A DNA stretch of 64,000 nucleotides from assembly GCA_963971405.1 (NCBI GenBank), contig OZ020490.1:16331464-16395463 (forward strand), read 5' to 3'. Position numbers and translations under genes: made by a program. The stretch is from Psococerastis gibbosa (Eukaryota; Arthropoda; Insecta; Psocodea; Psocidae). The notes below the pieces were generated by a model that was not told where the DNA came from, did no database searches, and was given only the letters and a program-made list of their open reading frames with translations. This document shows positions 1,594 through 53,903 of the stretch, in pieces; the first letter of the stretch is position 1; every line of letters begins with the position of its first letter.

Positions 1594-1734
1594 CTAGACA
1601 GCCTCCTGTACGGGAGGTTCGTATCCCTCCGGCCGGTCAACAGACGCTCCTGGCTCATCAGATGGTCCTTTGCTGTCACCATGTAATTCCAACAGTCGCG
1701 AAAGGTCAAAACGAGGCTTCTTCAGTACCTTCAC
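1594..1734 (-). CDS. RpS3A: RpS3A exon 6 (C-terminus)
   Basis: 47 codons including TAG. Acceptor TTTCTAG precedes GTG AAG GTA. It encodes [20 protein letters not shown], then the acidic and glycine-containing tail and the conserved GYEPPVQ end. It lies 2.3 kb from exon 5 because intron 5 has been enlarged by repeats. Confidence 0.95.
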
Positions 1735-4700
1735 CTAGAAATAAAAACAAAATGCCATTAGATGTAGCCTACTACAAAACCAGGCAGGGCAGAACATCCC
1801 TGCAACGAATGCCAGAGAAAAGTGACCATGGTCAACACCAGAGGTCTCACAGACTGGGATGCCCGTGGAATCCAGAGAGAACCGTTTTAGGACGACACGG
1901 GACAGCTGGACGTCGGGGGATAGCTGTATCATGCGAGATATTATTATTTAGTGCAGGGGTTCCCAAACTGATGGACCACCGGTGGTCCACAGTCATATAT
2001 CAGGTGGTCAGCAAGAAATAAGAAAAGAAAACAGCTGAGTTATTGGAAATTAGAAATAAAATACAGTAAGTCTTGGCACTGAACTACAAAATCCGCTCGA
2101 TACCAGTTCTGAACATTTAATTTAATATTAAAATCACAAGCTACATAATCTTGGTCCTAGAATTTAACGATTTTCCCACACAGCCATGGGGGTCCACGGA
2201 AAATAATAAAATAATCTAGTGGTCCACGGACAAAAAAGTTTGGGAACCCCTGATTTCGTGCATCCGATCCCCTTGAGGATTCGAACAACACTTCTCCGAA
2301 TTAAAATGCAAACTCTAACCACTCGACCACGGCCCTCTCCAGAGTATACTAGTTTGAAACTTCTACTTGAACTTCACCGTTTTCCTAACAAATAGCAACC
2401 ATACCGTGTCTAATGCTGGGCTGGCTTATGGGATCAGTATTCATAATATTTATTAGAGAAATCAGATCGTCCTGAATACTGAATCCATAAACAAGCATGA
2501 CATTGGACACGATATGGTTGCCATTAGGGAAAAAGTGAAGTTCAAGTATAAGTTTCAAACTAGTATAGTCCACGCAAAATGAGAAAAGTATGGACATGGA
2601 ATGTTTTGATCCTGTGCAACACTGGAAAAATATTCTTTGCACAATTTTTGTTATGCCTTGCATCCAATGCAACAAGGTAACACAAAATGGTGCAAATAAT
2701 ATTTTTATAGTGTCGTACAGGATCAAAACATTCCATGTCCATACTTTTCTCATTTTGCGTGGACTATACCTATACTCAGACGAGGGCCATAGTCAAGTGG
2801 TAAGAGAGCTTGCAATTCAATCGGGAAAACGGTAGTTCGAATCCTCAAGGGGAACGGATTTACTGGGTAACTCAGAAAATTTACAGGGAAATTGTAATTC
2901 TTGCAGAAACCTTCAGTGTTTCTCAGGACGAAACCTGATGATGGGATTAGCACCCACTGTCGAAACACCACCCCCTTCCCTGGACAACTGAGGCCCCAGC
3001 CTCTAATGACTATTAACACAGCACGCAATGTTAGTCCAACTAACCCTCTGTTTAACTTAGTTCGAAGGGTTTATTTTAATTAACAATCCTTTACAAAATT
3101 ATTAAAATGCTAAATGGGGTATACAAGTGATAGCGAATAGTAGGAGTCTAGTCTTTGTTACGTTCCTTGTAATTTTAGATGAATTACTGTTAATTTGACA
3201 CAATATTGAATTATTTATAGATTAAAAAACATTTTAATTATTTTTTCTAATTTTTAATATGCATATATCTATTCGGAACCTTCGTCATATTGACAACGAT
3301 CTGCAGCTCCGCGATTGGGTAAACGTAAAGGCAAACCAAAACGTCCTCGTCATAGCGTACGAATTTGAAGCTCTTTACAAATAAGAAAAATATAATTAAA
3401 ATATGAATTATTGATACAATATTTATATTTATGTACATTGAAAAAATCACTTGTACGCCCCATTATTAATGTAATTAAATTTATTATAAGACACATAAAC
3501 AATGGAAAACTTGAACAAGTTTTCGTTCATAATTTTTTTTTGTTTTAACTATGTTTTATTGAATACTCTGTATCACGCATAACAAATTAAATTAGTTCTT
3601 GTATCTGCCCTTTCCATCTGATAAACTACATCAGCTTTCAGAAGGATATTGAACAGAAATATTGCTTTACCAACAAAGAACCCCTATGTCGGACATGCTG
3701 GACCGAGTCAGGCCTTTGTTGGCATATTAATTCCTTACAGTGATGAATAAAACGTTAGGGATATGGCAAACATTTTAACTGTTGAAAAAAATTGTGAAAA
3801 AATGTGAAACATGGAGTCAAGATTAGGCAGACATATTGAAGATAAAGAAATAAAAAATATATACATTTTACATTTCGGAACTAATAATTTTTTACCATCT
3901 GATAATTATCCTTCTTAATATCTGTGCGTATAATACTGGTTAACTTCAATAGTCAACTGGGGAATGTTGTGAGATATTAGGCGGTTTCTTATAAATAAAT
4001 AATGTAATTATTACTGCACTGCTTACCTTTCGGATATACACGTCGTGAAGGGGATAGATACCACGGCACTTCTTCTCAATTTCCTGACCAATGTCTCCAG
4101 GAATTAGTTTCTGGACAAAATTCTTTACTTCGGTTTCTGAAACCTCCTTAGTGATCATATCTACCATCTTCTTACGGATAGCTCTTACCTAAAAGTAAAC
4201 GATAAGTACGTGAATTTATATAAGTTTTGGTGGAATTCGTAACAAAGGTAGAATCTATTACTTCACAAAGTAGGAGGTTTTGCTTCAAGGAGTAAATGGT
4301 GGTTCTGTACTTAGGCAAATGAACAGGTTATACATTTTTAATTATTTTACTCAAATACTTTTATATTTATATATTTATATTTATATTATATATATATATA
4401 TATTATATATTTATATTTCATGAAACTATCGTCAATTGTTTCAGCCTGTTCCATCTGATAATCTACAATAAGAATTCAGAAGGATATTAGACTGAAAAGT
4501 TAATATGCCAACATATTAGTAGAAACATGACATGAATAGTCCGCTTCTGGCAATGTTGGCTTTTAATACAAATAGGCTACACTTAGACTGAGACCCTGTC
4601 CCGAGGGTTTTTAGCATGGGGCATGTTTTTAATCTGTAATTTCCGAGCCCATACACCTCCGTATGATTTGCTTGTGGAAGCAGGGGAGCAATAGAAAAAC

Positions 4701-7700
4701 GCCATATTTAGGCCTTAAACTTTCGCGCCAAATGAAACTCAATAGTTTTCTTATGGTACCTAACCCAAGATTTTTAAAACTAAAAAAAAATGTGTCTATA
4801 TTAAATATTTAGGTTCTCTAACTTCACTATTATGATAAATATGCTTTCCCAAAATAACTGGAAATTATGTGGATTAAAAAGAAACAATAGCATCAAATTA
4901 GTTTAATCATCCAAAACAGTAACTGTACCCTATGAAATTTCAATGTAGCAAATGCAAAATTAAATTATAGGCAATAATGAGGGCAACAAAAAGGCAGTTT
5001 CTAAATAAAATACAGAATACCCCCTGCTGTGAGCCCAAAAATGGCGGAAGTCAAATGACCAAGCGACACGAGCGCCAATGGTTCTTCTAGTGTATTCTAT
5101 ATGTGCTTTGGTAATTTCAACAAGAGAGAAAACAATGGCCGAGCTCAAGGGGTTTGCTTCCGACCGGGGCGAGTTCAAGAAATGGGTACGGGGTGACCCC
5201 CTCACGCTGCGTACGCGGTACTGAGAGGGAAGAGAATAATTTTAACAATTGGCTACACACACTGGTCTCAATTTGCTACTTACTTGTTGATGCTGAGCGT
5301 AGCAGGTTTTCCTCTGCGACATTTGGTCTTTCTTAGTAAATCCAATGCAGAAGACTCTTAATAAATAACCATCAGTTGTTTTTACATCTACATGGGCTTC
5401 GATAAGAGTCTGAAAGCAACAATTATTCATTTATAATATTGCAAACCAAATATCCACCTTGATCAGAATTGAAGTAACATTCCACCAACTTCAATGTTTT
5501 AAAAAAATGTTTATATTTTATGATTTCTAGTGTTCTTTCCTCTTATGTTGAATTGTTTGAGGCAAACTAAATTAAGTAATAAGCGGGACAGAAATCGTTA
5601 GAAGTAAAATGTAAAATGATCAAATATATCAGAACCACTGCATCATACAGTCATAAAAGGCTGTTAGAATAGAAAGACTTGGTCTGAAATTAATTTCCCA
5701 ACGTATTAGAGAAAGGGATACATACAGTATCAAATTCAACGAGACGCTGGCTTAAACTACTCAGTATAGAATTACTTTTATAAGCACCTTTCAAAAGTAG
5801 TAACCAAACGGCCCAATTTGAAACTAGGCCTAGCACCTCTTGGCTGACTTGCCTTAAATTTAATTTTCAAATATTACTTTTCAAATTCTATCATTGAAGG
5901 AGTGCTGCAATAAAATATTTTACAACAGGTTGGCTTCGAAATATAGGCAAAAATACAAACCTGCCATTTCTTGACCATGCTTCTAAGTTTATCCGTTGTA
6001 AGATCCATTCCGTGGAAGTTTGTCAAGACATTCCTGCCCTGGACATCTTCAGCAATAAGCCTAAATTTACGGAAGCAACGCTCCGCATCGGAATCGTTCT
6101 GCAGATCAGCGCACGACACTTCAAACACGCGACCCTTCAAACCTTCGGATGCGATTTCTGAAACAAAATTTAGTTCACTTAATAACATACATTCAATACC
6201 AAATTATACAATAGTGAAAATGCTCTACCACCTGCAGACTTTAAAATGGTTGTACCATTTTAAGCTTCGATACGTGAGCAAAACATTCAGTAAGTTTTCA
6301 AGACGGTCACACGGTATCCAGCCAATTTAACATTTTCTTGGAGCTGATTAGCTGTTATATATACATATATCTAATTAAGTTATATATTAGTGAACAGCCT
6401 GATGATGTGAGTTGTTTCAGCCTGTTCCATCTAAAGCACTACAACATTGGTACTCAGAAGGATATTAGACTGTAAATTGATATATACCATCAATCACACG
6501 AGAGTAGACACATGACATACCCTCAGACATTATGATGGAAAAACCTTTTTATGGCATTGCATTGGATTAAACAGATTACGCAAGTCTCATGTCAAACATA
6601 ATAGTCCAGCATTATGAAATCAAAAATGAGACAATACCATACGCCATATGCTTAAGCATTATTAGAACCAGCGATGAAAACGAACGAAACCACCGAAGAT
6701 TTTGTTCACTTTTATAAATGCATGCTTATGAAAATATTGTAAGAATCAACGTGTTCCTTAAAATTTCTACAATTTTAAGTATGATGAAGTTCCACGAAGT
6801 CACTTTGGAGAATCTCACTATGATTCAATGTGTTTCGTTCGTTTCGAAATTGCTGGACGATCACTACAGCAGGCAAATAGCCTCTCCCTCTTGTTTTAAA
6901 ACACACAAGGGAAAAGCTGGCTTGTATTGGCTAATTAAAGTACTACCATACTACAGTCTGCAGCTAGGCCACGAGCAACACAGACCCAGACGGGGAGACA
7001 TTGTCACGGCGGGTATATAGAATCTGATCCACACCATTTCAATACAATAGGCCACATTTTAGCTAAAATTCCTTTTTGGCTTGCCAGCAAATTTGAACGC
7101 TCACGATTTGGGACATGTATGTATGTAAGAACCACGAATCTGGAATAAAACTGCCGGCACCCGGCAAGTTCAAAGCCAAACCACATTTTTGTTATATTTG
7201 ACTGTCGCATGCTCATTTAAGTTTTCAATAGAACGCACAAAAAATGCCATATTTCGCTTAGGCCCCCATGCCACATACGTACAACGTCAATGAAAATTAT
7301 GAAATTGATGGTGGCAGCAGAATTTTTAGTATGTAAAAATGTCTGCTGCCACCATCAATTTCATAATTTTCATTGACGTTGTACGTATGTGGAATACCCC
7401 CCTTAGGTGCCCATTCCACATACGTACGTCAATGAAAATTATGAAATTGAAGGTGGTAGCAGACATTAAAGACATACTAAAAATTCTGCTACCACCTTCA
7501 ATTTCATAATTTTCATTGACGTTGTACGTATATGGAATACCCGCCTTAGCTCAATGGATCCAATTGTTCCATTGCCAAGAAAAATCAACCTAATAACAGA
7601 GGATCATATTCGGTACTTACTTGTGCCTTGAGTCCTATTAACCAATGTTTTGCCAATCTGGCGGTTGGTAAATGTAGAAGGGGCTTTGACATCGTACCAA

Positions 7701-7924
7701 TCCTTCCTTGTAAACGGATCTATACTGAAAAATAAGTAAACACACATGTAACGACACGTACGCACCAAGTTTTTATCCTATTACATCTCAGCCATCTGCC
7801 TATATATTGGTAAATTTGATTGTTTTGTAAAAATGTATTCAATTTAATCATTAAATACTTACATCTTCTTCTTTGCACCTTTCTTTCCGCCTTTTGACAA
7901 ACCTTTATTCTTGCCTACTGCCAT
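1594..7924 (-). CDS. RpS3A: 40S ribosomal protein S3A (eS1), six-exon gene
   Basis: Structural protein of the small ribosomal subunit (eS1, platform side near the mRNA exit). The coding exons on the minus strand are 7924-7863, 7724-7621, 6157-5961, 5409-5284, 4188-4027 and 1734-1594. They sum to 792 nt, that is 263 residues plus stop, against 264-268 in human and fly. All junctions are GT-AG with matching phases. Hallmarks seen: a lysine-rich N-terminus [20 protein letters not shown], then [46 protein letters not shown]-like CYAQHQQ, IYPLHDV and the C-terminal [13 protein letters not shown]. The start is fixed by homology and by the only ATG in the first exon. A pyrimidine-rich leader precedes it. 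Introns 2, 3, 4 and 5 each carry an H/ACA snoRNA-like sequence on the same strand; intron 5 (2.3 kb) also holds several transposons. Confidence 0.97.
1954..2252. mobile_element. hAT-type MITE with 8 bp target-site duplication
   Basis: 299 bp bounded by the inverted repeats CAGGGGTTCCCAAACT and AGTTTGGGAACCCCTG, the classic hAT terminus. It is flanked by 8 bp duplications ATTTAGTG (1946-1953) and ATTTCGTG (2253-2260), one mismatch apart. The interior has a second inverted motif (GGTGGTCCAC / GTGGTCCACG). It sits in RpS3A intron 5 and is non-coding. Confidence 0.9.
2265..2345 (-). repeat. tRNA-like SINE head (SINE-C), truncated
   Basis: Read on the minus strand this has a tRNA-like arrangement: an A-box-like TGGTCGAGTGGTTAG and a B-box GTTCGAATCC about 35 nt later, then CTCAAGGGG. 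It matches the head of the longer copy at 2783-3080. No stable full cloverleaf or usable acceptor stem is seen, so it is not called as a tRNA gene. Confidence 0.6.
2349..2563. mobile_element. Inverted-repeat MITE, abutting a second one
   Basis: Arms CTAGTTTGAAACTTCTACTT and its imperfect reverse complement near 2545-2563, flanked by TATA on both sides. It directly abuts the mariner-type MITE at 2566-2766. Non-coding, in RpS3A intron 5. Confidence 0.6.
2564..2768. mobile_element. Mariner/Tc1-type MITE with ~50 bp perfect TIRs
   Basis: Arms beginning AGTCCACGCAAAATGAGAAA and continuing for about 50 bp are perfect inverted copies (to the CTTTTCTCATTTTGCGTGGACT at the right end) and are bounded by TA/TATA. 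The long, identical arms suggest a fairly recent insertion. The three ORFs found here on both strands are the palindrome read twice, not genes. Confidence 0.8.
2783..3080 (+). repeat. tRNA-like SINE (SINE-C), near full length
   Basis: Head GAGGGCCATAGTCAAGTGG then GTAAGAGAGC, with B-box GTTCGAATCC at about 2837, followed by a ~220 bp unrelated body. The same head occurs inverted at 2265-2345. The body's region of CTGATGATGGGATTAGCACC has no counterpart elsewhere in this window. Confidence 0.6.
3081..3596. other. RpS3A intron 5, AT-rich filler
   Basis: No recognisable element. A 70-codon open stretch at 3247-3450 contains a GC-richer core (3290-3370) open on both strands but matches no family I know. 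Confidence 0.4.
3597..3724 (-). ncRNA. H/ACA box snoRNA-like, RpS3A intron 5 (copy A)
   Basis: Read on the host strand: a 5' hairpin closed by GCCAACAAA / TTTGTTGGT, an H box AAAGCA (ANANNA), then a 3' hairpin closed by CTGTTC / GGGCAG, and ACA exactly 3 nt from the proposed end (ATACAAGA). The 3' pocket contains AATATCCTTCTGA and TCAGATGGAA, shared with copies B and C. Length 128 nt is typical. H/ACA RNAs guide pseudouridylation, usually of rRNA; the target here was not determined. It is intronic and would be released by splicing and trimming. Confidence 0.8.
4027..4188 (-). CDS. RpS3A: RpS3A exon 5
   Basis: 54 codons, phase 0 at both ends. Acceptor CTTTTAG, donor AAAG|GTAAGC. Encodes [16 protein letters not shown] through [15 protein letters not shown] and [11 protein letters not shown], aligned without gaps to the human protein. 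Confidence 0.97.
4375..4420. repeat. AT dinucleotide-rich microsatellite
   Basis: Runs of TATATTTATATT and (TA)n immediately downstream (host strand) of snoRNA copy B in RpS3A intron 4. Confidence 0.6.
4434..4560 (-). ncRNA. H/ACA box snoRNA-like, RpS3A intron 4 (copy B)
   Basis: The 5' hairpin is closed by a perfect 8 bp stem GCCAACAT / ATGTTGGC. The H box is ATATTA. The 3' hairpin is closed by CAGTCT / AGGCTG, and ACA lies 3 nt from the end (GAAACAATT). The upper 3' stem CTGA / TCAG separates the two guide arms AATATCCTT and ATGGAA, identical to copies A and C (C keeps the arms with a changed loop). 127 nt. This is the best-formed copy. Confidence 0.85.
5284..5409 (-). CDS. RpS3A: RpS3A exon 4
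   Basis: 42 codons, phase 0 at both ends. Acceptor GCTTTCAG, donor CAA|GTAAGT. Encodes [18 protein letters not shown] through CIGFTKK and CYAQHQQ. Confidence 0.97.
5622..5751 (-). ncRNA. H/ACA-like RNA candidate, RpS3A intron 3 (copy D)
   Basis: Hairpin-hinge-hairpin layout of about 130 nt: 5' stem CCAGCG / CGTTGG, hinge AAATTA (fits ANANNA), 3' stem TCAGA..CCA / TGG..TCTGA. The terminal box reads ATA rather than ACA, a variant known for some snoRNAs. The pockets differ from copies A-C, so it would have another target. It is weaker than the other three because of the ATA box and an imperfect 3' stem. Confidence 0.5.
5961..6157 (-). CDS. RpS3A: RpS3A exon 3
   Basis: 197 nt; the first two bases complete a Lys codon begun in exon 2. 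Acceptor TTTCAG, donor CAG|GTTTGT. Encodes [19 protein letters not shown] through [15 protein letters not shown] and MVKKWQ. Confidence 0.97.
6410..6538 (-). ncRNA. H/ACA box snoRNA-like, RpS3A intron 2 (copy C)
   Basis: 5' hairpin closed by CCATCA / TGATGG, H box ATATCA, 3' hairpin closed by CAGTCT / AGGCTG, ACA 3 nt from the end (GAAACAACT). Guide arms AATATCCTTCTGA and AGATGGAA match copies A and B; the 5' hairpin shares only ATGTCATGT.TCTACT with copy B. 129 nt. Confidence 0.82.
7261..7402. mobile_element. PIF/Harbinger-type MITE, first of a tandem pair
   Basis: 142 bp near-perfect palindrome; arms contain CCACATACGTACAACGTCAA and GATGGTGGCAGCAG. Flanked by TTA (7258-7260 and 7403-7405). 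Shares the right TTA with the next element. Confidence 0.82.
7406..7545. mobile_element. PIF/Harbinger-type MITE, second of a tandem pair
   Basis: 140 bp palindrome of the same family, flanked by TTA at 7403-7405 and 7546-7548. It differs from its neighbour mainly in GAAGGTGGTAGCAGA versus GATGGTGGCAGCAGA, so it is a separate insertion into the neighbour's target duplication rather than a copying artefact. Confidence 0.82.
7621..7724 (-). CDS. RpS3A: RpS3A exon 2
   Basis: 104 nt. Acceptor TATTTTCAG, donor CACAA|GTAAGT. Encodes [16 protein letters not shown] through [11 protein letters not shown]. Confidence 0.96.
7863..7924 (-). CDS. RpS3A: RpS3A exon 1 with start codon
   Basis: ATG at 7924-7922 followed by [20 protein letters not shown], then AT|GTAAGT donor. 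Intron 1 is only 138 nt and too short for a snoRNA. Confidence 0.96.
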
Positions 7925-7949
7925 GTTTACATTCAAAGAAAACAGAAAT

Positions 7950-7989: not shown

Positions 7990-9750
7990 TACCAACGTTA
8001 CCAACATGATTTGTATTTATTTGGGGTGGTTGCCTGTTTATAAAAAAAACGCGCCTTTTTCAAAGTATTCAAACTTTTTTTTCACAATGATGGTACATTT
8101 GTAATTTTCAGCACATTTTCCATAATTCAATCAAATTTAGTTTTATATTTTAAGCGTTCCGCCAAATAACGAATAAAACCCGATATACCGCTAACTTACA
8201 GTAGCAGAGTTGTAATATCAATATTACTATTCAGTCATAGCAATGATACGTCTTGGGAACTGTCAACAGGTGAAGGCTATATTATCAACGTCATATTTTT
8301 GGCAGTTACACGGGTATCGCTTTACCACTTGACCCAAAGGCTAGCCTGCAATTTCCTAATTATCTCCGCCTAAGTCCTTAAGGATTATAAAACTTTGATT
8401 TTCTGTGCGTCGTGTAAAGAAACTACCTACTATAATGAGAGAGGGGGGGGGGGGGGTAAATAAATTATTACCAGCAGTGCACTGCTGTTTTATATTACTA
8501 TAGACTACCCTTTGGCTGACTAGTCGAATGTTGATTTGATTCTATTAATGAAATTGTCAAAAGTAGACATTGTAAGAAACAATCGAAGGTTTCGCCTTAT
8601 AAGTGTAACAATAAAATATCTCATGAAATATCAATCATGGAGTTGCCAAAAATATCATGACAAACAGAAATGTTATATGTAATGTATTTTTATTTACTGT
8701 ATATTTATAATGTGACTTAATGTTTATAACTTGCACTTACTTATTTTGATTTTAAGTTTTATCTGCTCACTTATGAATGACAATCTGTCGAAACCGGTCG
8801 TGACGTTATTTTAATGTTTCATGTGATATTTTACAAAGTTAACTCTCATTATAATAAGAAGAAATGTTTCTTTGCATTATTATATGCACCACTTTCCAGG
8901 CGCGAATCTAGAATGAGACCAAGGAAGGGGCTAAGATTAAATACGATTTTTTTAAAAATAGGGCTGAACTATTGGAGTTTTACGGTACGCATTTTCAGAG
9001 CAATAAGGGTTCTATATTGCAGGTAATTAATACAATCGAGCAAAAGGGGGGCCCGGGGGGTCTCCCCCGCGAGAAAATGTGTGAAAAATAGGACTGAAAT
9101 AGTGGGGTTTTATGCATTTTTAAGGAACCTAATGGGCCCCCCCCTCCGCGCCTGCCTCTTTCTAACACAGATTGGCCACAATTAAATTATTGAAATTGAA
9201 TTGTACAAAAAACGATTGGTGTGGTATGGCCGAGGAAAGAGTTCAAGTGCGGTCTAATTGGTATTAGTGGAGGTATGTCATATATCCAAATGTAGAGTCC
9301 ACTAAGGAACATAAAGAATCATAGCCAGCTTTATACTTTGCAAATGTATATTTCATCAAAAGAAAACTTGAATGTAACAAAGACAATTAAGCATATAACA
9401 AGGACGCTTGCTCCCACAAAAATAACAGTTTGCAATAAGATATAAAGGCTAACAGTTATGCACTTGGTAGAATAATGCTAGTAACCTGAATTGCAATAAA
9501 AAATATCGTAAACAGCTGCCTCAAAGGAAATAAGAAGGCAAGTCACTATGCAATAAAATCGTTAAAAATTGTAAAATTAAAGTTAATATTGGTTGCGAGA
9601 AATGACAGGCACATCTAGGTTGGTTTAGCAATAGAACAATAAGCCAATACTTCCCTACTGACAGAGACAGAGTTTGCCAGAGGGCCCAAGTTATAATACT
9701 CAGACCATAGAATATTATCATGATGCTTCAAATCCACAACCAAGGCAATG
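7990..9750. other. Intergenic between RpS3A and the RabGAP gene
   Basis: No gene recognised. It has a G13 run at 8443-8456 and a diverged tandem duplication: 8940-9030 and 9070-9135 share AAAATAGG.CTGAA.TA.TGG and the GGGGGGCCCGGGGGGTCTC block. ORFs here carry no domain. Confidence 0.4.
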
Positions 9751-11429: not shown

Positions 11430-12006
11430 GGAAACTGATGTGATTATTGTAACTTATTGTACAGTTTACTAGTTCGAATTGGCACCTTCTAGATAAAATT
11501 AGGCTGTGTAGGATAAGCGTGAATCCTCAACAGTGATCTACAGAATAGATAACCACCATAGCCAGAAGATTACAATAATACGACAATAAATTGTTGCGGT
11601 AGCGCATTGCCAATTGGCAATGTGAAATAGTAAGCGACAAATAGCACACTGCATTCATAAGGGTAGTTTTTAAGTACTGTACTGCCTGCCTTCATGCAAC
11701 AAAATAACATGGCATCTGCGAATACTTTCAACACATAGCTCATAGGCAACGTTTCCGCACCCAAGACACACAGCCAATAAAGCCGGGCCAGCAAAACTAA
11801 TAGAATAACCAGAACCACATTGACGCGGGTTCATGGTCTGTGGTCTGAAATTCCGGCAAGGAATGACATTCTTGGTTAGCAACACCATCGATTCCCCGCT
11901 CGCCAACAAAACGCCTGGTACAGACCACGTCCCATCAGACCGAATCTATGAAGTTCTCTAGACTCCAACAGCGCAACTCTTTGGATTCATGCAATGCCAT
12001 AATTTA
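11430..12006. other. Region 3' of the RabGAP stop codon
   Basis: Presumably the 3' UTR of the TBC1D1/4 gene and flank. No AATAAA is seen on the minus strand close to the stop; the nearest is at about 11117-11122. Two overlapping minus-strand ORFs (11570-11909) match no family. Confidence 0.35.
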
Positions 12007-34300: not shown

Positions 34301-37300
34301 GAGTCAAGCTACCGCTTGTTACCAATGTTAAGAATCTCTAAGCTTGCCCATTGGGACTTGTAGTTAGTGCGGGTTAACTAAAGGATTGACCCAGTTTGCC
34401 AGCGGCAAGAAATTCATATGGATACCAACAATGCCCGCAAAACTGATGGGGTCGTTGGCAGGGCAACCTTCAATGGACGCCTACAAGTGAGACTTTCAAA
34501 AACCCTTCAATTTTTTTTATTAATACAAAAAACCTGTGGGCCCCCAAGTTCATAAATTTTTCGGGGGCTCACACAGTAAATAAGAACCGGTCCGAGGTTA
34601 CTCGAACATGCTTTCCAATTTATCAATTAGTAGATAGATAAAATTAGTAATTTCATGGTAAATTATTTTCCTATGGTTAAATTTCGGATGTTTCGGAGGG
34701 GGGGGGGTTGCCCACCTGACGTCACTGGAGGTGAGGTAAATTCTAGATAGGTCAGACCAACACATTACCACACAGTAATAATGGCAGGGCACGCAATGCA
34801 TTTGACCGTGAATTTTCTATCATTAAAAAAAAAAAAAAAAATATTTGCCGAAACCAAATAGTTTTTTGTGAAAGCAACCTGCCCGGTTTCGTTACTCAAT
34901 TTAACATAAACATGCCTGAAGGTAGAAATCATCGATAGAAAGGTTTCGCAGAAAAATTATTTTTTAGTAATATTTCATTAAAATTTAGATATTCTCATTT
35001 TTTTACCCCCAGAAGCAAACTATCAAGAGGCAAGCGACCCCTACATTTTATTACCATTAATAACGACTACAATATACTGTATATATGTGAATTTAAAAGA
35101 AATCGTTGGAGCCGTTTTTGAGAAGTAATTTTTATAGACTTTTTTTGGAGTTTTTTTTAGCATAAAACTCCCCCAAAGTTAGCCGAAAATAATAAAAAAA
35201 GCTCCCAAGGCATGATTTTTGTAAACCTACATGCAGAATTTCATCAAAATCGACAGAGTGGTTTGCCCGGAAATCGATGAACAGACAGACAGAGCGACAG
35301 ACAGACATTTCGTAAAAACCACTTTTTTGGGTTCCTGGTACCTCAAAAATCCGTTGAAATCTCGGACCATCACAAAGCTTTCCTTATACTACGTATAAAT
35401 TGGAAAGCAATAAATAAATTAAAAATCAAATGGTGACTGCAGGCGCCAGATATCGGTCGCAGGAAGAACATGAGGCAGTGGTTTGGCAAGAGCACGACTT
35501 CCCTTTTCAGAGCAGCAGTCTCCTAGGTCTAAATTGCCATGGTGATTGATCGCCAATCTTCGACAGAAGAGGCACTAAAAGAAGAAGAAGAAGAAGAAGA
35601 AGTTAAGCTGTGGGGAACGCTACGAGTTTATGGGGGCAGTTAGTTGAATCGGACACATGTTTTAATGGAGAATAGAAGCGATTGGGTACACGAAGTGAAC
35701 AATAATGATATAGGGAGCATACTAGAATCCGCCATTAAGCAAATAAAGTTCCCTATAACTGTAACCAATCGGTGTGCGTGATGGCCACATACTATTCATA
35801 AAAATTCAGTCGAACGACAAGGGTGGAGGGAACAGCCAGTTCAAGTCGCATCGACAGGTGGAACAACTCTAAACATCCAGGAAAAATAGCGCCTGGAGCC
35901 CAACTGCCGTACCCTGCATGGCGGAGACCGAGTCTCAATAGGCTAAGAACGGGGGTCACAAGATGCCGCGCGAACTTGTGTAGGGGAGGACTGGCGGAAG
36001 ACCCGACTTGCGCATGCGGACAACTACAAGACAACAGCCACCTTCTGGTTTGTCCGAGACTAGGAGAAGCTGTGTCCCAGATAGATGATAGATTTCTGAG
36101 ACGCCAATGACAAGGCCATCCAGACCGCAATGTTTTGGAACCACGTGTTCTACGCCCGGACAAATCCATTAAGTAAGTAAGTAAGTATTCATAAAAATGG
36201 AGATAAACATTTATTCCATTTCCAAATTTCTCTACGACAGCTCTACTATCGATGTATCCTCTGCAATTTGCTTTTGTTAACTCAAATGCTTTCCCCCCTC
36301 CTCTTCTCTTAAATCCAACTCTGAATCACACTATCACTGTGTTCATGCCAACGGCCATACCAAGTAGAACCCACCGGAACAGAGCCTGTTCAAAACTGCG
36401 GCATACTTGGTAGTGTGCCCAGGGGAACATGGTGGGACATGATAACGTGCTGAGACTAGTTAATTGCGTACAAACAATTTAATGAATGTATCCGATTAAC
36501 CTCTTTAATCGCCTCACTAAGTGACCTTATAGGTACTTGTGTCGAGTTACGACACGTCTCCGATCGCAAGGTGTGTAGAGACTCGCACAAGTATAAGCAT
36601 GCTACCACCTGGCCACCGAAGTCGCTTAATCGTGTGACTTTACTAAGTTCCCCAAGTGGTTCGGAATCCACTATAATCAGGAGGTCCACTCTGTCAGTCA
36701 ACTCCCCGAGGTGAAGGAGTCTGCCCATAGGGTGCCTCAATTTCATGAAGACTCACTCCCCCCGCCAGGCTGACAGGGTTGCTTAAAGCAGAAATGCTGA
36801 AAGCAGGTGTGGGAAAACAAACAAACAAGCCACTGTGTCCCTTTATTATTAATTAATGCGGAAACCAAACGATTACAGGCTAATGAACCAACATTGGCAA
36901 CGGGAACTCATTTTCCAGCACAAAGGAAGTCAAATGAAGAAATAAGCCTAATGGAACTGACAGCAAGTCGAATCTACGTCACATGAACAACCTACGTCAA
37001 GGACTCGAGTTCACCTTTCCTTCGTCATAGACATTAAGATAGGTACTCACATTGTTTTTGCGAACCTGTGGGATGTACCTATACGCTTGAGTGTGACCCC
37101 TTGCATACCTATTGTATGTAATACATATGAGTAGGTACTGCAAGATATACCCGGCCGATTGTAGAATGCACATGTTCAGTTAGCACGCATTTTATAACAC
37201 AATCAGCCAAATTCATAAAAAGAAGCATAAGCTTATACTTCTAATAATTGGAGCATATGCTCGTGTTCCACACATAAATTTTTCGAGCAAGAGTATTTGC

Positions 37301-52700: not shown

Positions 52701-53867
52701 TAAATCAATAAAAATAACAAGTGTTGGTGTGCTAATTTTCTACGTAGTACGTCCTCTTAAAACAGGCGAAAATACGTGGGAAAATCTGTTTGGCTTATGG
52801 CTAGAACCTCCCAAAAAACTAAGTCACCACTGTGGAGTCGTTAATTGACTTGGCCGCAGATGCTCACCTTACCCGCCTGGTCCTGTTTGAGGGGATTGAA
52901 CCTTCTAGGAGTATTTGCATCAAAGTACCCAATCTTTCAAAGGGAAAGACAGTGCGTTGGAAGTATCTTGGTTTTAGCGTAGAAAAGCACAGATTTGGGA
53001 GAAAAAAAAGTAAGCCAATTCCCCTTATTACACATTCAAATACTGGAAGAATATTGTTCCAATATTCGATCCAATAAATATGTGCCCATTATAAAATGCC
53101 TAGAGGAGTGTATGGAAATGGAAAGCAAGGGCAAAACCATTATTATCTATACAGACTCGCAGGCAGCGATTAAGGCTGTGGAGGCTATAAAGATCACATC
53201 AAAAATGGTGTGGCACTGCATCAACCTCCTAATAAAGGTGTGTCGGGAAAACTCAGTCTCGCTGATTTGGGTCCCGGCTCACTCGAACTTTGATGGGAAT
53301 GAAAGAGCCGACGAGCTGGCTCGAAAAGGTGCAGAAACGCCATTCATTGGTGCAGAACCTAAGTATGGGATGGCTTATTGCCAGGCCCGTACTTCTGTAC
53401 AAAAATGGGTGCAGAGAAAAACTGCAGAGGAATGGAAGAAAGTCCCGGAAAGCAGATTTGCTAAGAAGGTTATTCCGGGTCCTAGTAAAAAGCTCACCGA
53501 TCAGCTTCTCTCTTTAAGTAGAGAGCAAGCTAGAAGGGTGGTTGGCACGCTTACGGGCCACGGCCACTTCAACAAACACATGCATAGGGTTGGCGTGAAA
53601 AACGACAGTAGATGCAGACTGTGTGAAGTTGAAGAAGAAACAGCTGAACACATTCTCTTTGAATGTGAAGCGCTGGGAAAAACTCGATACCAAACTCTTG
53701 GCCACCCTAGGTCTGAAGAGGAAACCATCCGATCTAATCCCATCACAAAAACACTAGAATTTATCCAAAAAGACTGGTGTTATAAGATGGGCGTAGACGG
53801 CAAACGTGGAAGCAAAAGACCTTCTAGGTCGACGCTTATAGGAACTCAAACGAGTAGGCCCCACGAA

Positions 53868-53903
<36 letters not shown>

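Follow-up and report, generated by a model that had tools for sequence, protein, structure and literature searches.

Each of introns 2 to 5 of RpS3A (eS1), a ribosomal protein (RP) gene of the psocid insect Psococerastis gibbosa, carries one short unit with the anatomy of a box H/ACA small nucleolar RNA (snoRNA), the kind of stable RNA to which dyskerin, NHP2, NOP10 and GAR1 bind. The window in which they were studied is a stretch of 64,000 nucleotides of contig OZ020490.1 (GenBank assembly GCA_963971405.1, positions 16,331,464 to 16,395,463), and all coordinates below refer to it. The four units, here termed A to D, are very probably genes for box H/ACA guide RNAs. This had been proposed in an earlier note on the same DNA and is supported by the gene structure, the anatomy, the paralogy of the units with compensatory changes between them, and a similarity that is mostly limited to the unit itself.

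Four H/ACA units in the introns of RpS3A

A complete RpS3A lies at 1594..7924 on the minus strand, with six coding exons (7924-7863, 7724-7621, 6157-5961, 5409-5284, 4188-4027 and 1734-1594) encoding 263 amino acids. All five introns have GT donors and AG acceptors, and the protein matches the Pfam family Ribosomal_S3Ae (E 4.4e-82). Its top match in PDB is 4v6w_AB, 40S ribosomal protein S3a (E 5.9e-130), which we take to belong to the Drosophila ribosome. Unit D (6410..6538; hinge ATATCA, tail ACAACT) lies in intron 2 (7620-6158, 1463 nt inclusive), unit C (5622..5751; hinge AAATTA, tail AUAUUU) in intron 3 (5960-5410, 551 nt), unit B (4434..4560; hinge ATATTA, tail ACAATT) in intron 4 (5283-4189, 1095 nt) and unit A (3597..3724; hinge AAAGCA, tail ACAAGA) in intron 5 (4026-1735, 2292 nt), all on the minus strand. 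The earlier note had placed four units of 127-130 nt on the host strand, one per intron, and its coordinates are confirmed, as is its description of two hairpins and an ANANNA hinge in all four with an ACA 3 nt from the end in three.

A hairpin-hinge-hairpin-tail fold was obtained for 4 of 4 units, and in each of them the hinge contains an H box ANANNA. As a rule, the internal pocket of each hairpin of an H/ACA RNA lies upstream of its box (H or ACA) by about 14-16 nt, and with the pocket held open this distance is 14-15 nt in 8 of 8 hairpins. In the unconstrained minimum free energy (MFE) fold, UCC/GGA pairs shut the 3′ pocket in each of A, B and D, and the 5′ pocket of A is narrowed. The terminal box, 3 nt from the 3′ end, is ACA in A, B and D and AUA in C, and both ACA and ATA are allowed as H/ACA terminal box in the available part of a study of chicken snoRNAs (PMC2653536). 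Units A, B and D have a common 3′ pocket 14 nt from the ACA, in which the left guide strand is AAUAUCCU (3643..3650 in A, 4481..4488 in B and 6459..6466 in D, all on the minus strand) and the right one is UGGAAA in A (3611-3616) and UGGAAC in B (4448-4453) and D (6424-6429). Unit C has a weak 3′ hairpin of -10.3 kcal/mol, and in its 5′ hairpin the guide strands are CUCGUU (5738..5743) on the left and UCUAAU (5705-5710) on the right, also on the minus strand.

The distance from the end of the unit to the 3′ splice site is 252 nt for D, 212 nt for C, 245 nt for B and 1862 nt for A. The extra length in intron 5 is due in part to inserted sequence, namely a 299-nt element and an inverted repeat. 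The element, at 1954-2252, has the ends CAGGGGTTCCCAAACT / AGTTTGGGAACCCCTG and is flanked by the 8-nt sequences ATTTAGTG / ATTTCGTG, identical at 7 of 8 positions; it resembles a small hAT-type element. The inverted repeat, at 2563-2769, has arms of 86 nt with a complementarity of 93%.

H/ACA anatomy beyond chance

The 64 kb were scanned on both strands for a box A(C/T)A with a hinge start 46-80 nt upstream and two hairpins, each of -5 kcal/mol or lower, with a lower stem of at least 4 pairs and an upper stem present. A strict scan took pockets at 12-17 nt in the unconstrained MFE, and a pocket-open scan, with the pocket 13-16 nt from each box, was designed after the strict scan had missed three units; shuffled sequences were put through the same relaxed rules. 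The pocket-open scan gave 31 matches in the 64 kb and recovered all four units, each time only on the sense strand of the host, hitting the 3′ ends exactly and the 5′ ends to within 2 nt. The scores (and ranks) were -33.4 (3) for B, -31.6 (5) for A, -27.1 (8) for D and -26.6 (11) for C, ranks 10 and 13 being alternative ends of A and C. Intron 1 (7862-7725) is without a claimed unit, and a single weak match (7823-7940, score -11.6) straddles exon 1 and this intron.

Among 143 local dinucleotide shuffles of introns 2 to 5, matches scoring -26.6 or better numbered none in 142 and one in the remaining shuffle, compared with seven in the real introns: one for each of B, C and D, two for A with different 3′ ends, and two in a palindromic element. 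Because natural inverted repeats do not survive shuffling, a second control was taken from the remainder of the window. Outside A to D and the palindrome three matches on both strands reach -26.6, and by length about 0.13 such matches are expected per 5.4 kb of sense intron. The H/ACA anatomy of A to D is beyond chance.

Other matches that score like the four units are found at 9029-9170, 35902-36025 and 11589-11704 (+), at ranks 6, 7 and 9. The palindromic element is nested and occupies 7268-7558 in intron 2, and scan ranks 1, 2 and 4 fall inside 7295-7558. At 7287-7513 microRNA families of Rfam match weakly, below the cut-off; these matches overlap this element and were taken as artefacts.

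Paralogy and compensatory changes

Local alignment of the unit cores, with 1000 shuffles per pair, gave similarities that no shuffle equalled for A-B, A-D, B-D and B-C, and that were equalled by 23 of 1000 shuffles for C-D and by 493 of 1000 for A-C. Unit C is linked to the set chiefly via B, over a stretch that runs from the middle of the 5′ hairpin across the hinge into the beginning of the 3′ hairpin. Of 12 comparisons between 200-nt flanks, 11 came out at the chance level or close to it, their similarity being equalled by 21 to 161 of 200 shuffles; the likeness is mostly confined to the RNA unit.

Alignments of whole units by MAFFT misaligned the 5′ hairpins, and the pair count was therefore limited to the 3′ hairpin and to units A, B and D, with C excluded. 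In this hairpin 92.6% of 54 cells are paired and 5 of 18 pairs are changed on both sides; the pairing and the double changes were each reached by 2 of 500 shuffles, and slid controls were 33-48% paired. Three sequences are a small sample, and this shuffle count is not a probability. In the 5′ lower stem of A to D, hand-aligned on the folds in an alignment that leans towards structure, 3 of 8 positions are doubly changed and no pair is broken where letters are present. A covariance model built on the 3′ hairpin of the A/B/D set found its three members and nothing closer than E 0.86 in the 64 kb, and missed unit C at E up to 10, which means that there is no fifth copy of that hairpin and that the one of C has diverged. 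The copies described in the earlier note are not equal: A, B and D are one close set, and C is a divergent paralog whose terminal box is AUA and whose 3′ hairpin has changed.

Predicted guide targets

Potential targets were searched in 18S and 28S ribosomal RNA (rRNA) with a largely provisional reference text and list of pseudouridine (Psi) sites for Drosophila. In the known-site test 38 placed fly Psi sites of this list stood among 1661 uridines and seven pockets were scored, each named here by its unit and the end of its hairpin. For A3, B5 and C5, three of six independent pockets, the top uridine is a listed fly Psi site, which shuffled guides reach in 1-3%. The share of 300 shuffles equalling the best known-site score was 0.003 for C5, 0.033 for A3, 0.043 for B3, 0.073 for B5, 0.51 for D5, 0.70 for A5 and 1.0 for C3, figures that are uncorrected for seven tests. 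The C5 score of 26 is the highest of the seven pockets and was reached by 1 of 300 shuffles.

The best site of A3 is 28S GUUUCC-C-Psi-C-AGGAUA with 6 + 5 pairs, and the 3′ pocket of B and D pairs with the same stretch by 6 + 4. The uridine is presumably Psi960 in yeast numbering, and the two uridines in the stretch are spaced 6 nt, as are 28S-1612 and 28S-1618. In the available part of the chicken study, snR8/ACA56 is assigned to 28S-1612 and snR43/ACA9 to 28S-1618, and four chicken guides for 28S-1612 pair by 3+7, 9+4, 6+3 and 6+4 nt (PMC2653536). The sequence GTTTCCCTCAGGATAGCTGG is present in bovine 28S and in a bivalve 28S primer, as given in the available parts of PMC1325260 and PMC11287081. 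From this complementarity units A, B and D probably guide modification of the predicted snR8/ACA56 site of 28S through their 3′ pocket (UAUCCU with GGAA or GGAAA).

The 5′ pocket of C pairs with 28S GAAUGGA-Psi-U-AACGAG by 6 + 4, extendable to 8 + 4, and it is rather likely that C guides to this predicted site by way of CUCGUU and UCUA. The uridine is presumably fly 28S 2626, and the listed fly positions of the 2626 group fall on a uridine in 8 of 8 cases at one offset. An assignment of B5 to 18S UUAGU-Psi, presumably fly 1377, is less likely than the two 28S assignments and is not claimed as a target; neither is a match of D5 to 5.8S with a score of 25, nor any target of C3 or A5.

Eukaryotic rRNA was not found in the viral contigs and plasmids searched. 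A scan of genome contigs gave four contigs (L001-L004) with one short 28S stretch each and with no Rfam match at gathering score. The C5 target stretch is present in L001, L003 and L004 and as a variant in L002. Three of these contigs (L001, L002 and L004) are titled MAG: bacterium endosymbiont of Escarpia laminata, MAG denoting a metagenome-assembled genome, and L003 is titled Planctomycetaceae bacterium MAG. In all four, filed as bacterial, a short piece of eukaryotic 28S adjoins other sequence at the point where R2 inserts, and this suggests that R2-like elements of eukaryotes were binned with bacteria.

Alternative explanations

Several results weigh against units A to D as H/ACA guide RNAs or against the targets assigned to them. 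When each whole unit was compared with 200 dinucleotide shuffles, the MFE stood out clearly for A (z -3.77, 1 shuffle being as good) and for B (z -5.95, no shuffle being as good), but not for D (z -1.60, 13 shuffles) or for C (z -1.38, 19 shuffles). By MFE alone, the comparison with shuffled sequence proposed in the earlier note is thus clearly favourable for two of the four units. Total energy is a blunt test for an RNA such as A, B or D whose MFE closes the 3′ guide pocket. The strict scan of the 64 kb gave 15 candidates with C at ranks 2 and 3, and missed A, B and D because the unconstrained MFE closes their 3′ pockets. The B-D downstream flanks, which are AT-rich, show a similarity reached by 0 of 200 shuffles, and this likeness may be a duplication remnant or simple sequence. 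Rfam gave no match at gathering score within the window. The weak H/ACA matches on the units are to SNORA28, which scores 22.1 bits on B where 65 are required (E 1.7), to ceN84, with 20.2 of 80 bits on D (E 9.2), and to SNORA15, which overlaps D with 18.6 of 47 bits (E 7.2). For the targets, the best score of every pocket was within the range of shuffled guides, with p 0.555 (A3), 0.79 (B3 and D3) and 0.995 (C3) for the 3′ pockets and 0.38 (A5), 0.955 (B5), 0.13 (C5) and 0.85 (D5) for the 5′ pockets. The top match of B3 is a listed Psi site tied with a non-site, those of C3, A5 and D5 are not at a listed site, the pairing of A, B and D leaves one C unpaired before the Psi, and most of the rRNA text and the Psi list is provisional.

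It is somewhat unlikely that the units are H/ACA RNAs with other targets, be it other rRNA sites, small nuclear RNAs or messenger RNAs, and are thus orphan guides. Such an explanation agrees with the H/ACA identity and departs from the targets; the target scores within shuffled range and the three of seven scored pockets without a top match at a known site fit it, but the top match at a listed Psi site in three of six independent pockets does not. The motif UGAG of Cajal-body RNAs (CAB motif) occurs in no loop of the four units and twice in D, both times in stems, which argues against Cajal-body RNAs; with no CAB box in a terminal loop of A to D, their identity as small Cajal-body RNAs was rejected. 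That only A, B and D are working snoRNAs, with C an orphan or a copy in decay that has no target in rRNA, is unlikely, and would be compatible with the H/ACA reading of the other three. The weak 3′ hairpin of C, its AUA box, its MFE within the shuffles and its absence from the matches of the A/B/D model are as expected of decay, but its 5′ hairpin retains a 7-base-pair lower stem with compensatory differences from the other units, the 5′ pocket lies 14 nt from the hinge and has the top known-site score, and C alone among the four passes the strict MFE scan. Finally, A to D might not be RNA genes at all but a structured repeat, mobile or simple, that was copied within AT-rich introns. Several palindromic elements do occur in the host introns, and the one at 7295-7558 scores high in the scan, but A to D stand one per intron and on the host sense strand only, they differ from each other by compensatory changes within a similarity mostly restricted to the unit, and the 3′ hairpin shared by A, B and D has no additional copy in the 64 kb. 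A mobile-repeat origin is highly improbable and was rejected on the grounds of the one unit per intron, the sense strand and the compensatory changes.

The reading of A to D as box H/ACA guide RNA genes implies a course of events that we describe by analogy with the known pathway. The four units most likely arose by intragenic duplication within RpS3A, and each would be released from the spliced intron and trimmed back to the two hairpins with H/ACA core proteins bound. Each would then guide dyskerin, the pseudouridine synthase, to an rRNA uridine; expression, processing and assembly into a ribonucleoprotein are all expected from that pathway. Tentatively, and with rather less than even confidence, we suggest that an ancestral H/ACA snoRNA spread to four RpS3A introns and that the copies then split function, three keeping a 3′ pocket of the snR8/ACA56 type and the intron 3 copy losing it and keeping or gaining a 5′ pocket that guides to a second site in 28S, some 60 nt downstream of helix 69. 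If so, one host gene would supply guides for two or more sites through the divergence of their pockets. The four units also provide simple pseudouridine predictions and, on a small scale, a natural case of guides that diverged once they had been duplicated within a gene.

Other features of the window

On the minus strand, an open frame at 15988-16539 matches the Pfam domain Rab-GTPase-TBC (E 1.3e-20), and one with RNase H and zf-RVT domains, as in a non-LTR (long terminal repeat) retrotransposon, lies at 52983-53942 on the plus strand. No tRNA was found in the window by ARAGORN.

Comparison with known systems

The predicted positions of C5 and of the A/B/D 3′ pocket are presumably those of the Drosophila snoRNA:Psi28S-2626 and snoRNA:Psi28S-1135, names for which a limited literature search showed no paper. 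Yeast snR8 and vertebrate ACA56 have the same predicted site as A, B and D and a similarly short pairing (6+4 or 6+5 nt here), a likeness that draws on base complementarity, on the presumed yeast numbering and on the snR43 site lying 6 nt away. The type of arrangement is already known. Hosting of snoRNAs by RP introns and the spread of paralogs within one host by intragenic duplication are described in the available parts of PMC2246290, PMC13228274 and PMC2653536, with 27 fly RP genes hosting snoRNAs in the first and 73 of 239 snoRNAs of S2 cells having RP hosts in the second. The intronic H/ACA clusters of Drosophila, as far as these sources present them, often lie in RP genes and there are, like A to D, sense-strand units within introns. 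RpS3A has no mention in the available part of PMC13228274, and a limited literature search found no H/ACA RNA in an insect RpS3A, which is weak evidence of absence. RpS3A is possibly new as an H/ACA host, and the present units would add this host gene and a four-member paralog set, unannotated in Rfam, to the H/ACA repertoire.

In vertebrates the same host gene carries snoRNAs of another class, the C/D snoRNA U73 (SNORD73), and the available part of the chicken study places U73b, an orphan C/D snoRNA, in intron 5 of RPS3A (PMC2653536). A strict scan for C/D boxes on the sense strand of introns 2 to 5 found none, a U73-like C/D cargo in these introns was rejected, and the contrast with the vertebrate cargo drawn in the earlier note was right. 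The comparison suggests that one and the same host gene carries different snoRNA classes in vertebrates and in Psococerastis gibbosa.

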